Below are positions 12,945-61,164 of a stretch of DNA of 64,000 bases, piece after piece. Every line of letters begins with the position of its first letter. Within the stretch, counting starts at the first letter, position 1. Source of the DNA: Methanoculleus bourgensis MS2 (lineage in GTDB: Archaea; Halobacteriota; Methanomicrobia; Methanomicrobiales; Methanoculleaceae); NCBI RefSeq assembly GCF_000304355.2, contig NC_018227.2, forward strand, positions 1,860,001-1,924,000. Direction: 5' to 3'. The position numbers were made by a program, and so were the translations under genes. The notes beneath the pieces were generated by a model. The model made no database searches. It was not told the origin of the DNA and worked only from the letters and a program-made list of their open reading frames with translations.

Positions 12945-13073
12945 CCCTCACGCGGAAGTTTGCGAAGCACACGTGAGGATGTGCACTTCCTCTTCCACCG
13001 CCACTCTTCGCGGCAACGTGTGCGGCTGGCGTTCCAGATCAGGATCCGCAAAGATTGGGTGAAATGCTGCACT
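12945..13073. repeat. Decayed CTAG-family palindromic element
   Basis: Within the gene-free gap 12727-13130 the right part reads GATCAGGATCCGCAAAGATT followed by GGTGAAATGCTGCACTAC. This is a mutated form of the element end CGCAAAATAAGGTGAAATG...CCACTAG at 16492-16514. Weak facing arms (CACGCGGAAG, GCGAAGCACACGTGAGG) precede it. No gene is seen in this gap. Confidence 0.45.
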
Positions 13074-13130
13074 ACGCCCTTAACACCGGTTCGATGCCCC
13101 CGGGCCGGGATCATGGAGTGCCGGCCCACC

Positions 13131-16290: not shown

Positions 16291-16514
16291 CTAGCGGATC
16301 ATTGCATCTAATATTTCCATGCGGACATCGCCTCGCCCTTCGCGAGAGACCGTAGCACCTCCCTATACCGAAATCCCACGCGAAGCCGCGAAGGGCGCGA
16401 AGGGCGCGAAGGGCGCGAAGGGCAAGAAACGGGAAAACTTCGCGGCTTCGCGCTCTTCGCGTGCGGTGGCGATCTGCATCAGGACCCGCAAAATAAGGTG
16501 AAATGCTCCACTAG
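16291..16514 (-). repeat. Complete CTAG-bounded palindromic element, reverse orientation
   Basis: Bounded by CTAG at 16291-16294 and 16511-16514 (224 bases). The left end CTAGCGGATCATTGCATCTA and the right end AATAAGGTGAAATGCTCCAC plus TAG are the reverse complements of the right and left ends of the copy at 31805-31983. The interior has facing CACGCGAAGCCGCGAAG and CTTCGCGCTCTTCGCGTG arms and a 9-base tandem GCGAAGGGC repeated about four times at 16388-16423. Confidence 0.8.
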
Positions 16515-25995: not shown

Positions 25996-26820
25996 GTAGT
26001 GGACTGTTTCACTTTATTTTGTTGTTGAGCACATCCCAAAAGTACCCTGCGACCGGATATCCACATGGCTCAGAGCATGCTGATGCACGTTCGCAAAGAA
26101 TTGAGCAAGAGCCAGCGTCAAAAGTGCTGACACGGCTTTCCACCGGATATCGCCTCGCGGGGGAGGGGCCTGGAGGGGGTGTCCCCCCATTGGCGCGAAC
26201 GCAACCATGGGTGCACTGCGTTCCGGGTTGGCTATCGGCGAGGTTCAAGTTCTGTTGAACCCCCATGTCGGTTCTGGTGATCGTCCCCACCCACCTCAGC
26301 ATGGGTGGTGAACGCGGAGTATCCCCCGGCTCACCCGGGCAGGGGACCGTGGTGGGAATCGCCTCGGGGGAGGAGACCGGGGAGGGGGCTCGCCCCCTCC
26401 CCGCAGGCGGCGGAACTCGCAGAACCCTCCTCGTAGCCCCCACCCCGCCCGGCTCGCCGGCGCTCCTCCCCCGCCCCAGGGGGGTGGGGGCAGTGTATGG
26501 CGATACCCGGGAAAAACCCTGCCCGGGCATGATAACCTCCCGGAGCGAACAGGTCAGGCTCTCATCTCGTACTCCCCGACAGGGATCAGGACCGTTCTCC
26601 GAGGAGGATTGGCCGCAGACCAACAATGCCCATAATCGGCGCTTGTCTCCTGAATTGAGCGGTATCCTCGTGAATCTCCATACCGAACGTTGGCGCCTAT
26701 GGGGGCTCGCCCCCTCCCCGCACAACCCGAACCCGGGCACGATGGAACTGAGCAGGGGAGCCTCCCCGTCGCCAAACTGGGGGTGTCTTCGTGGAACATT
26801 TAGGTGAAATGCTCCAGTAG
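25996..26820. repeat. Repeat-bounded block (CTAG-family ends about 820 bases apart)
   Basis: The left end AGTGGACTGTTTCACTTTA (25997 onward) and the right end TTTAGGTGAAATGCTCCAG (26801 onward) match the two ends of the CTAG family in facing orientation, with AGTAG in place of CTAG. The interior is GC-rich with a third repeat type (near 26386-26535) and no convincing gene. From 26818 a further truncated copy begins (GTGGACTATCTCACCGTATC). The whole gap 25944-27013 holds no recognisable gene. Confidence 0.5.
26386..26535. repeat. GC-rich repeat family, copy 1
   Basis: Contains the core GGGGGCAGTGTATGGCGATA followed by a CCCGGG-rich hairpin. The same core recurs near 29613, 31684 and, inverted, 61262. 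Confidence 0.5.
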
Positions 26821-31546: not shown

Positions 31547-31611
31547 GATCATACCTTTTGAACTAGTGCAATGATTCCAAATTAACAGACTATATCGGGC
31601 CTTCGTCCCAT

Positions 31612-31745
31612 CCCCCACGGAGCGCTCCCCTTCGTCCCCCACCCCGCCCGCGCTTCGCGCTCCTCCCCCGCCCCCGGGAGGGGCGGGGGCAGTGCGTGGC
31701 GATATCCGGTGGAACGCCGTTCCCGGGATGCAAACCCCCGGAAGG
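31612..31745. repeat. GC-rich repeat family, copy 3
   Basis: GGGGGCAGTGCGTGGCGATA at about 31684-31703, followed by TCCGGTGGAACGCCGTTCCC. It shares the core with the copies near 26486 and 29613, within the gene-free gap 31547-32067. Confidence 0.5.
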
Positions 31746-31804
31746 CGTGAAACGAGATCGATACTCCCCTCCGTTGAACGTGCCGGTAATTGAGAATCGA
31801 TGTA

Positions 31805-31983
31805 CTAGTGGACCGTTTCACCTTATGGTGCGGGTCCTGATGCGGGGTGAGCGATCGCCACCTCACGCGAAGCCGCGAAGAACGCGAAGGGGACTATGCC
31901 GTCCAGCAACCGAACTTCGCGGCTTCGCGCCCTTCGCGTGAGATGATATTGCATGGGCAATATTAGATGAAATGATACACTAG
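31805..31983 (+). repeat. Complete CTAG-bounded palindromic element (type copy)
   Basis: 179 bases from CTAG (31805-31808) to CTAG (31980-31983). Ends: CTAGTGGACCGTTTCACCTT on the left and AGATGAAATGATACACTAG on the right, imperfectly inverted (CTAGTG.....TTTCA). Inner arms: CTCACGCGAAGCCGCGAAG against CTTCGCGCCCTTCGCGTGAG. Almost identical copies occur at 42688-42808 and 42805-42983, and an inverted one at 16291-16514. Confidence 0.85.
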
Positions 31984-40850: not shown

Positions 40851-41245
40851 AACTTCTGCTGACGTTCTCCCGGAGAGGACAGCACGACTCCGGAAGGGAA
40901 CCGGTGATCGCCCGGGTGGTGAAGGAGACCGGTGTCCTGATCAATGTGGAGAAGGCGAACATCGACTCCATGGCCGGTGAAGTGCTGATCGACGTCCCCG
41001 ATAGCGACGCGGACCTGGTCAGGCAGCGCCTTGCGGAGATGGGTGTCGCGGTCCGCGTCATGGAGAACGCTATCGCTCTCGACGAGGCTGAGTGTGTCGA
41101 TTGCGGGGCCTGCATCAGCGTCTGCCCCCAGGAGGTCTTCTCGTTCGATGAGGAATGGCGCCTCCAGGTGAGCGGGGAGCGGTGCGTCCTCTGCGGCAAG
41201 TGCATCCTGGCCTGCCCCCACTCTGCCCTCTCGCAACAGGGATGA
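40847..41245 (+). CDS. NIL-domain 2[4Fe-4S] ferredoxin of homocysteine synthesis (MA1822-like)
   Basis: 132 residues. The N-terminal NIL domain (about 1-75) is followed by two 4Fe-4S motifs, CVDCGACISVCPQ and CVLCGKCILACPH. It supplies electrons or sulfur handling for the DUF39 protein. Start and stop overlap its neighbours (ATGA), a tightly coupled three-gene operon. Confidence 0.93.
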   Translation: MKLLLTFSRRGQHDSGREPVIARVVKETGVLINVEKANIDSMAGEVLIDVPDSDADLVRQRLAEMGVAVRVMENAIALDEAECVDCGACISVCPQEVFSFDEEWRLQVSGERCVLCGKCILACPHSALSQQG

Positions 41246-41958
41246 TCAGGGAGCACTTCGAGTTCCGGCAGACGATCGCGACCATCCTTGCCGACGAGCC
41301 AGGGCACGTTGAGGCGGCGAAATCCGGTATGATGGCCGCCCGGCAGGAGGTCGAGCGACAGATCGCCACGGATCCCTATTTTTCAGCGACGCTTGAGCCG
41401 TATACTCCAGAGGCCCCGGGCCGGACGGTCGGCCGCATGGCCCGGGCAGCCGAGGAGGCCGGGGTCGGGCCCATGGCGGCGGTGGCCGGCGCCATCGCCT
41501 GGGCAGGGGTGGAGGCGATGGTCGATGCCGGGGCATCGTTTGGTCTCGTCGACAACGGGGGGGATATTGCTCTTGTGAGCGATCGTGAGGTGAAAATTGG
41601 TGTCTTCGCGGGGGCATCGCCCTTAAGCGGGCGCATCGCGTTCCTGCTCCCGCCGCAGGAGGGGATCCTCGGCATCTGCACCTCCTCGGCGACGGTGGGG
41701 CCGTCCATCAGTTTCGGCATCGCCGACGCCGTGACGGTCTTCTCCCCCGACGTCGCCTGTGCGGATGCCTGGGCGACGGCGATCTGCAACCAGATCACCA
41801 GAGACGACACTTCTATCCTCGACGCCCTCCCGGGAACGGAGATCCGGGGAGTGCTCGCCGTCATCGGCGACGTGGTGATCCGCTGGGGAGATCTTCCCCC
41901 GGTTGTGCGGGCAAGGGTGGACGAGCGGCTGATCACCGCGGGGAGACCGCCTGTCTAG
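41242..41958 (+). CDS. UPF0280/COG2122 protein, ApbE-like (MA1715-like)
   Basis: 238 residues. Conserved GGDIAL in FGLVDNGGDIALVS, the SGRIAFLLPP strand and GICTSSATVGPSISFGIAD, similar to ApbE-like flavin-transfer folds. The COG2122 protein of Methanosarcina has been linked to cysteine/homocysteine synthesis as a third component, and its position after DUF39 and NIL-ferredoxin genes supports that. The TAG stop (41956-41958) is formed by the CTAG at the boundary of the downstream repeat array. Length is normal, so truncation is slight if any. Confidence 0.9.
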   Translation: MIREHFEFRQTIATILADEPGHVEAAKSGMMAARQEVERQIATDPYFSATLEPYTPEAPGRTVGRMARAAEEAGVGPMAAVAGAIAWAGVEAMVDAGASFGLVDNGGDIALVSDREVKIGVFAGASPLSGRIAFLLPPQEGILGICTSSATVGPSISFGIADAVTVFSPDVACADAWATAICNQITRDDTSILDALPGTEIRGVLAVIGDVVIRWGDLPPVVRARVDERLITAGRPPV

Positions 41959-42362
41959 TGCCAAGTCAACGACAAATTGTCGCAATAGTGCATCGTGTCA
42001 CCTTATTTTAGAGATTTTTGGAACGTGCCGGGATGGGCACTCCGGTCTCACGCGGGAGAGCGCGAAGTTCAGTAATGGGTGTAGGCAGTTCCCTTCGCGG
42101 CCTTCGCGTCTTCGCGTGAGGCTGTATCCCCTGTGCTGAAAGCTCACGCGAAGGCGCGAAGAGCGCGAAGGTCGGTATAATCCCCTGCAACGCCCCGTCA
42201 AGGCCTTCGCGCCTTCGCGTGAGGCAGTGCGGTCATAGAGAGTACCAACGTCTCACGCGGAAGCACGCGAAGGTCGGTTGCCGGGCGGTATAGTCCCCCT
42301 TCGCGAACTTCCGCGCGAGAGGCAGTATTTCATGGGCAATATTAGTTGAGATGCCCCACTAG
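41955..42362 (+). repeat. CTAG-family array unit 1, with outer fragment
   Basis: Starts with CTAGTGCCAAGTCAACGAC, a 36-base fragment that matches the reverse complement of 61129-61164. The inner end TAGTGCATCGTGTCACCTTA follows at 41986. Between them and CTAG at 42359-42362 lie three successive palindromic arm pairs (CACGCGAAGG.../...CTTCGCGTGAG). The closing end reads ATTAGTTGAGATGCCCCACT. Confidence 0.75.
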
Positions 42363-42518
42363 TGCCCTTTGCCATCTTAAACCCTAAAATCCAATGTCAC
42401 CTTCGCGACCTTCGCGGCTTCGCGTGAGGTTGTAGTGGACTCCCCGTCTCCATATGTGGCAATTGGCATTCCACCTTGTGCATCGAAATCTTCAAAAATA
42501 AAGTGACAAGATGCACTA
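42359..42518 (+). repeat. CTAG-family array unit 2
   Basis: From CTAGTGCCCTTTGCCATC to CAAGATGCACTAG. Left 60 bases align with 60905-60960 and the right end ATCGAAATCTTCAAAAATAA aligns with 61099 onward. It shares CTAG with units 1 and 3. Confidence 0.75.
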
Positions 42519-42690
42519 GTGGAGCATTTCACCTTACCTTGAGGGTGTGTGGGAGTGATCGCCGGTCTCACGCGAAGGCGCGAAGAGCGCGAAGGGGACC
42601 ATATCGTCCAGAAACCGAACTTCGCGTCCTTCGCGCACTTCTGCGTGACGCAACAATCACATGGAAATATTAGGTGCAATAGTCCAGTAG
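42515..42690 (+). repeat. CTAG-family array unit 3
   Basis: From CTAGTGGAGCATTTCACCTT to GGTGCAATAGTCCAGTAG. Inner arms CTCACGCGAAGGCGCGAAG and CTTCGCGTCCTTCGCG. The right junction is CAGTAG, not CTAG. Confidence 0.75.
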
Positions 42691-42808
42691 TGGACCGTTT
42701 CACCTTATGGTGCGGGTCCTGATGCGGGGTGAGCGATCGCCACCTCACGCGGAAAGCCACGCGTGAGAGGGTATTGCATGGACAATATTAGATGAAATGA
42801 TACACTAG
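42688..42808 (+). repeat. CTAG-family array unit 4 (internally deleted)
   Basis: Left end TAGTGGACCGTTTCACCTTA and right end AGATGAAATGATACACTAG are identical to the copy at 31805-31983, but only a short CACGCGGAAAGCCACGCGTG remains between, giving 121 bases. Confidence 0.8.
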
Positions 42809-42983
42809 TGGACCGTTTCACCTTATGTTGCGGGTCCTGATGCGGGGCGAGCGATCGCCACCTCACGCGAAGACGCGAAGGACGCGAAGGGGACTCTGCC
42901 GCCCAGCAACCGAACTTCGCGGCTTCGCGCCCTTCGCGTGAGATGGTATTGCATGGACAATATTAGATGAAATGATACACTAG
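42805..42983 (+). repeat. CTAG-family array unit 5
   Basis: 179 bases, almost identical to 31805-31983, with a few substitutions. Its closing CTAG (42980-42983) provides the TAG stop of the minus-strand gene at 42980-43372. Confidence 0.85.
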
Positions 42984-43372
42984 AACCACTCGTCCAGGTA
43001 CCTGACCATCTCCCGGTATGCTCCTGGCCCGCGGAACGCAGCCTGCACCTTCTCCCCGTCGGTGAGCAGGAGAACGGGGTCTCCGTCTTCCCGGTGGAAG
43101 ATAACCTCGTAGATATCGATCTCGCCGACGATGATCCCGCGGGCGAGGTCCGATGCCGCGTGGAGTTGCAGCCTCTCTTTCGTCAGCTCGTCCGGGGTCT
43201 CCCGGAAGTGATAGTAGAAGACCTGGTAGGCGTTGAGGAAGTCGGAGGCGAGGAGCGCGCCCCGGGTCTCCCCGTCAAGTGTGTCCAGCACATCTGCCAG
43301 CCGTTCATCGTCATCACCGCTTGCCTCAAAGAGCCTGTCGGCAAGGTCTGCCAGTTCTCTATAGTCAACCAT
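42980..43372 (-). CDS. Hypothetical protein, ends in the repeat array
   Basis: 130 residues, soluble and acidic; not recognised. It begins MVDYRELADLADRLFEASGD and includes NAYQVFYYHFRETPDELTKE and FHREDGDPVLLLTDGE. Predicted helices occupy the first half and strands the second. The final codons read ...DEWF and the stop TAG is within the CTAG border of the repeat unit, so the original C-terminus may have been altered by insertion. Divergent from the HTH gene at 43512. Confidence 0.7.
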   Translation of the reverse strand: MVDYRELADLADRLFEASGDDDERLADVLDTLDGETRGALLASDFLNAYQVFYYHFRETPDELTKERLQLHAASDLARGIIVGEIDIYEVIFHREDGDPVLLLTDGEKVQAAFRGPGAYREMVRYLDEWF

Positions 43373-60862: not shown

Positions 60863-61164
60863 CTAGTGCCGGGTCAACAATCAAACGTCGGATAGAGGCG
60901 TGCCACTGCTCTTTGCCATCCAAAACCCAAAATCCAATGTCGCCTCCGCGACCTCCCGCGTGAGTTTTCAGCACAGGGGGTGATCGAGTCTCACGCGAAG
61001 CCGCGAAGACCGCGAATGGGACTACTACCGCCCAGCAACCGAACTTCGCGCTCTCCCGCGTACTTCCGCGTGAGGTCATCGTTGTTGCATTTCACGCATC
61101 GAAATCTTCAAAATAACGTGACACGATGCACTATTCCGACAATTCATCGTTGACTTGGCACTAG
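60863..61164. repeat. Composite CTAG-bounded element with long outer inverted ends
   Basis: 302 bases. Outer ends CTAGTGCCGGGTCAACAATC and, inverted, CTAGTGCCAAGTCAACGATG frame an inner unit like array unit 2 (CTCTTTGCCATC... to ATCGAAATCTTCAAAATAAC). A further solo end, CTAGTGCCAACCGG, is at 61226. The gap 60737-61637 has no gene. Confidence 0.75.

Follow-up and report, generated by a model that had tools for sequence, protein, structure and literature searches.

IS630 prefers CTAG as its target (Tenzen and Ohtsubo 1991, as cited in PMC2170065 and PMC6811581), and the textbook duplication for this element is TA, which is 2 bp in length (PMC2170065). Here we describe family A, a mobile family of MITEs in the genome of Methanoculleus bourgensis MS2, whose unusual characteristic is a 4-bp duplication in place of the textbook TA. 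We file family A as a MITE family: its behaviour is that of an IS630 MITE, except that it breaks the 2-bp rule and that its own transposase partner is putative. It is an undescribed family: within the partial coverage of our literature search, which extended to MITEs of Methanoculleus, we found no description of it.

Structure and copies of family A

The window, by which we mean the whole 64-kb stretch of DNA that was analysed, spans positions 1860001-1924000 of a single-contig genome of 2,789,774 bases. An earlier note, made from the letters of this stretch, had proposed a CTAG-bounded, MITE-like palindromic family with inverted ends and inner CACGCGAAG-type arms. The copy at 31805-31983 is composed of the following features, with strand given where it is assigned.

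31805-31808: left CTAG, the first copy of the 4-bp target duplication (a length established family-wide)
31809-31979, + strand: family A element proper, 171 bp (TGGACC...GATACA), without an ORF
31809-31829, + strand: left terminal inverted repeat, TGGACCGTTTCACCTTATGGT
31862-31889, + strand: left arm of the inner palindrome, CTCACGCGAAGCCGCGAAGAACGCGAAG (folding z-score -4.89)
31915-31942, + strand: right arm of the inner palindrome, CTTCGCGGCTTCGCGCCCTTCGCGTGAG (from sequence and folding)
31946-31963, + strand: small hairpin ATATTGC...GCAATAT beside the right end (from sequence and folding)
31959-31979, - strand: right terminal inverted repeat, read on this strand as TGTATCATTTCATCTAATATT
31980-31983: right CTAG, the second copy of the target duplication

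Read 5' to 3', the layout is thus CTAG, TGGACCGTTTCACCTTATGG..., two CACGCGAAG-type arms, the ATATTGC/GCAATAT hairpin, ...GATGAAATGATACA and CTAG, and both the ends and the inner arms that had been claimed are present. A search of the whole genome (2.79 Mb) with 31805-31983 recovered 45 near-full copies, this one included, with 88-100% identity and lying on both strands as the earlier note had held, and the objection that no further copies might exist therefore fails. Copy numbers beyond these 45 are estimates: the end pattern, allowing up to three mismatches, occurs 486 times genome-wide (253+233), which is far above chance given that a reversed-pattern control yields 28 (15+13). The commonest element length, found for 31 of 115 elements, is 171 bp. 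This short core, its many copies, its terminal inverted repeats and its lack of coding capacity, together with the occurrence in both orientations and the target duplication and empty sites described below, make the MITE reading correct. The Rfam search gave no match within the window, and hence no assignment to REPs or to a known structured RNA.

Congeners contain numerous sequences of the inner palindrome type (CTCACGCGAAG...CTTCGCGTGAG, 31862-31942) that are not enclosed by these terminal repeats. The palindrome appears to be a repeat in its own right that several MITE families contain, and it is best read as cargo because it is also found in the genus without family A ends. A literature search on the CACGCGAAG arms returned nothing relevant. 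A second intergenic repeat family, which is very rich in G+C (GGGGGCAGTGCGTGGCGATA..., CAGTGGACCGTGGTGG...), often adjoins the CTAG elements, being located at 31590-31780, at 26140-26790 and in the flanks of many A copies. One A copy (L023, about 1500) lies directly 3' of a sequence (GTCATAACCAGTTAG) that has the appearance of a tRNA gene and is a candidate on that basis.

The other loci of the window are given below, where B and C denote two sister families.

2613-2767: family A copy flanked by CGAG/CGAG, a non-CTAG target duplication
following this copy, to about 2886: second, decayed A-like unit
12945-13077: decayed A copy of which the right end alone is recognisable
16291-16514: A-type element, CTAG/CTAG, with 216 bp between
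25996-26820: A-type ends (GTAG flank) separated by about 820 bp of unrelated G+C-rich repeat DNA; a composite and not a single element
41955-42362: array unit 1, a chimera of a family C left end and an A-type right end, CTAG/CTAG
42359-42519: array unit 2, family B element, CTAG/CTAG
42516-42690, + strand: array unit 3, family A subtype, CTAG/GTAG
42687-42808, + strand: array unit 4, family A with an internal deletion, GTAG/CTAG
42805-42983, + strand: array unit 5, full family A, CTAG/CTAG
60863-61164: sister family C element, CTAG/CTAG, with ends TGCCGGGTCAACAATCAAACGTCG / TGCCAAGTCAACGATGAATTGTCG

The copy list of the earlier note stands in part. The loci at 2616-2886, about 12945 (decayed), 16291-16514 and 31805-31983 are A-type as listed, but 60863-61164 belongs to the sister family C and has different ends. 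The supposed copy at 41955-42983 does contain A units, yet it resolves into five abutting units that include the C/A chimera and a B element, and 25996-26820 has the A-type ends that were reported but an interior unrelated to the family.

Target-site duplication and mobility

Among 49 aligned copies the flanking 4-mer is usually CTAG, and elsewhere it is CTAC, CTCC, GTAG, ATAC or CTAT, the same on both sides. We extended this comparison to a sample of 115 non-redundant elements of the three related families, drawn from the sequence examined and enriched for arrays. In this sample CTAG stands on both sides of 57 elements, and most of the others have NTAN, with GGAG and CGAG as exceptions. Where CTAG is found on neither side (35 elements), the two 4-mers are identical in 21; 2000 shuffles gave 6.4 on average and never more than 13. 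This matching-flank figure is diluted by a few of the 115 rows, for which a B-like end inside family C entered the count. The matching non-CTAG flanks are CTAC, ATAG, GTAG, CTAT, CGAG, GGAG, GTAT and CTAA, and one base further out, at the fifth position, the two sides agree in only 20%.

CTAG is therefore a 4-bp target duplication lying outside the element, since flanks other than CTAG still match on both sides, and the element proper runs from TG to CA over about 171 bp. The same observation rules out CTAG as a part of the element. The bounds proposed in the earlier note were thus right as to the usual flank but mistook a duplicated target for an element end, as the CGAG/CGAG copy at 2613-2767 illustrates. 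A duplication of TA only is likewise ruled out, because such a model needs a fixed inner G and C and predicts CTAG/CTAC, whereas CTAC/CTAC, ATAG/ATAG and GGAG/GGAG are seen; moreover, the GGAG and CGAG pairs contain no TA. Insertions at CTAG alone would be ambiguous, and it is from the natural insertions at other sites that a duplicated length of 4 bp can be deduced. Judged by the description of IS630-family MITEs, family A does insert at TA, preferably within CTAG, but it duplicates 4 bp and not exactly the 2 bp of TA.

Evidence of movement comes from empty sites, which were sought by joining the flanks of a copy without the element and searching 34 congeners. The ATAG site of a copy at about 66.8 kb is contiguous in G027 (91% over the 597-bp place), where the target reads ATAA, and two CTAG sites at gene ends, each overlapping a TAG stop codon, are uninterrupted in G032/G024 and in G033/G022, the target in G022 reading CTAA. 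For the GGAG site of L010, the alignment with G029/G021 was too poor to count. With empty sites at three loci in congeners, the refutation that the earlier note had allowed for, an absence of such sites, does not hold. In addition, an A copy (1964574-1964752) is nested within a C element (1964391-1964871) at an internal CTAG.

Six family A copies elsewhere in the genome are mutually identical, and movement has therefore been recent. Exact family A end patterns in GTDB genome contigs are confined to records of Methanoculleus or Methanomicrobiales, none of which has an apparent ORF-bearing version, and the pattern was absent from the viral contigs searched. Most congeners have a few end-pattern matches each, and the family is strongly amplified in the M. 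bourgensis MS2 genome.

Intergenic location, CTAG scarcity and tandem arrays

None of the 30 A copies tested overlaps a predicted gene, even though about 78% of the window is coding as judged by a home-made, uncurated codon-usage gene finder. The assertion that the family resides only between genes thus holds for these 30 copies and for all seven window loci. In 10 of the 24 cases where both neighbours were called, the flanking genes converge. A few copies, as an occasional occurrence and not as a rule, have a flanking CTAG that serves as a stop codon, and where this is so the duplication preserves the stop, for example on both sides of the 41955-42983 array. There, the left CTAG (41955-41958) contains the TAG stop of a predicted gene at 41155-41958, and the right CTAG (42980-42983) contains the stop of a predicted - strand gene at 42980-43372. 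Given that both outer CTAGs of this array are stop codons, we suggest that the original target was a single CTAG shared by the stops of two converging predicted genes.

No palindromic tetramer is more strongly depleted in the window than CTAG, which is seen 20 times against 226 expected from composition and 61.6 expected from a Markov model, and by our count 11 of these 20 are element borders. Neighbouring array units have one 4-mer in common at each junction, and in the array-enriched sample of 115 elements 88 of the 230 sides are shared in this way. A scarce target that is duplicated at each insertion would offer a simple account of tandem MITE arrays: each insertion would turn one scarce CTAG into two, and the borders of earlier elements would often be the sole sites available. 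There is, in our judgement, an even chance that an IS630-type lineage and its MITEs duplicate 4 bp (CTAG or NTAN) and not TA, with the elements seeding their own future sites and forming self-propagating mixed arrays in a CTAG-scarce genome.

Arrays could instead have grown mainly by local tandem duplication, through unequal crossing-over, without repeated insertion at a shared 4-mer. In L067, a divergent unit 2 separates units 1 and 3, which are 98.9% identical to each other, and the order CTAG-A-GTAG-A-GTAG-A-CTAG in L069 is most easily obtained by duplication after one mutation. Some near-identical neighbours therefore suggest that local duplication also takes place. As the main process, however, we consider it improbable, because many arrays mix families A, B and C or divergent A subtypes, with several neighbours only 68-87% identical, because autonomous IS630 copies also stand in arrays, and because several loci have arrays bordered by CTAC, as repeated insertion would produce.

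Candidate transposases and related systems

The earlier note had found no transposase in the window, and in agreement with this, profile searches with PF01609, PF00665, PF13546 and PF13358 gave no match inside it. Across the genome, the IS630 profile DDE_3 has three matches, all in elements with CTAG on both sides and inverted ends.

1857286-1858482 (L191): IS630-family element with family B-like ends, TGCTCGTTGTCACCTAATTTTC / TGCTTGTTGCCCCTCATTTTTA, 1.5 kb upstream of the window
570341-571548 (L189): IS630-family element with family C-like ends, abutting an A-type element on a shared CTAG
L190: IS630-family element with family C-like ends, abutting an A-type element on a shared CTAG

PF13358 matches the B and C partners with E values of 8e-35 and 4e-23, and the NCBIfam model transpos_IS630 matches both types. 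In all three elements the transposase is split between two ORFs whose overlap falls on seven consecutive A, an arrangement suggestive of programmed frameshifting. The search for an autonomous element that the earlier note called for was thus successful for family B (L191) and family C (L189 and L190), and in the sequence read it yielded none with the ends of family A itself. The full reading of A-type ends covered parts of the first 1.06 Mb, where no full-length IS630 element with these ends was found, and with coverage of this extent a partner specific to family A may have been missed. Unpaired A-type ends in that region were considered as a sign of an autonomous copy, and those inspected proved to be decayed or longer MITEs. 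All autonomous IS630 copies seen have CTAG flanks, and the length of their own duplication is unreadable for that reason.

Family A ends agree with IS630 ends at 11 of 18 positions, a modest likeness (nominal P about 0.02). When the ends of families A, B and C were scored against the IS ends compared, two Methanohalobium end strings that extended by at least one padded base past the sequence read being excluded, the best matches were in each case IS630 ends (nominal P 0.001-0.026). We judge it likely that family A is mobilised by an IS630-type transposase supplied by autonomous elements of the same genome. An IS630-family (DDE_3) enzyme from elements sharing TG-beginning terminal inverted repeats would bind the A ends, excise the DNA by a presumed cut-and-paste chemistry and join it at CTAG or a similar NTAN site, and subsequent repair would duplicate 4 bp.

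A different parentage was also weighed, in which family A, with its TG...CA ends and 4-bp duplication, would be the MITE of another, lost or unrecognised transposase family (IS3-/IS481-like, or IS701/IS5-like with YTAR targeting) unrelated to the resident IS630 elements. Families of the rve type typically have TG ends and duplicate 4 bp, and no A-specific partner was found in the sequence read. MITEPsy1 of Pseudomonas duplicates CTAG or YTAA (PMC3189936). However, the genome has no rve transposase, and the rve elements of congeners lack family A ends, which speaks against an IS481/IS3 parent. Neither is a parent of the IS4, IS5 or IS701 type apparent, since none of the six DDE_Tnp_1 matches, one of which is also the sole DDE_5 match, has such ends. 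L083 (1354-2441), for example, holds a single-copy element with TAGGAGTTACGCA ends that duplicates TTCAG and encodes a 328-aa transposase recognised by both PF01609 and PF13546. Given that the resident IS630 elements have the same CTAG and TG border and abut A copies, we find an origin from another transposase family unlikely.

Far less probable still is that family A is a REP- or terminator-like regulatory palindrome that is under selection and not mobile. Its strong hairpin (z -4.89), its consistently intergenic position and the convergent neighbours in 10 of 24 cases are what such a palindrome would show, but the loss of insertions that hit genes would produce an intergenic bias without any function. 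Target duplication, nesting in a sister element, the two orientations and identical copies at unrelated loci all speak against it, and as an origin it is contradicted by the empty sites; a regulatory side effect of the family is possible.

Mobilisation by an IS630-type enzyme, which we favour, would tie methanogen MITEs to IS630-type elements, and family A adds a high-copy, recently active MITE family to a group of organisms where few have been described. IS630 of Shigella sonnei and the IS630/Tc1/mariner group (ISY100) share with our elements the CTAG preference, the terminal inverted repeats and the DDE_3 transposase of the presumed partners, but they duplicate TA where family A, which has no transposase, duplicates 4 bp (PMC2170065). 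CTAG also stands on both sides of IS630-family elements on plasmids of Polaromonas, Caballeronia, Azotobacter, Methylocystis and Methanohalobium. Those of the ISPna1 kind (Polaromonas, Methanohalobium, Azotobacter and Methylocystis plasmids) have CTAG TG... ends and transposases about 55-67% identical to the resident C-type IS630 transposase, but they are full-length and their end sequences are unlike those of family A.

MITEPsy1 of Pseudomonas syringae, which is 100 nt long, is comparable as a MITE with CTAG among its duplicated targets, but its ends are GGAAGGTCTGAAAAAGCC, it is thought to derive from ISPsy2, and the accessible part of its description notes no tandem stacking (PMC3189936). 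The short mobile repeats (SMRs) of Haloquadratum walsbyi produce no target duplication and have ends that match no known transposon, but they too are archaeal, non-autonomous repeats with inverted ends that prefer to insert into other repeats (PMC3119063). Finally, the Sailor (DD82E) elements of the IS630-Tc1-mariner group are full-length and target TATA, not CTAG, but like family A they duplicate 4 bp, mostly TATA, instead of TA (PMC8533490).
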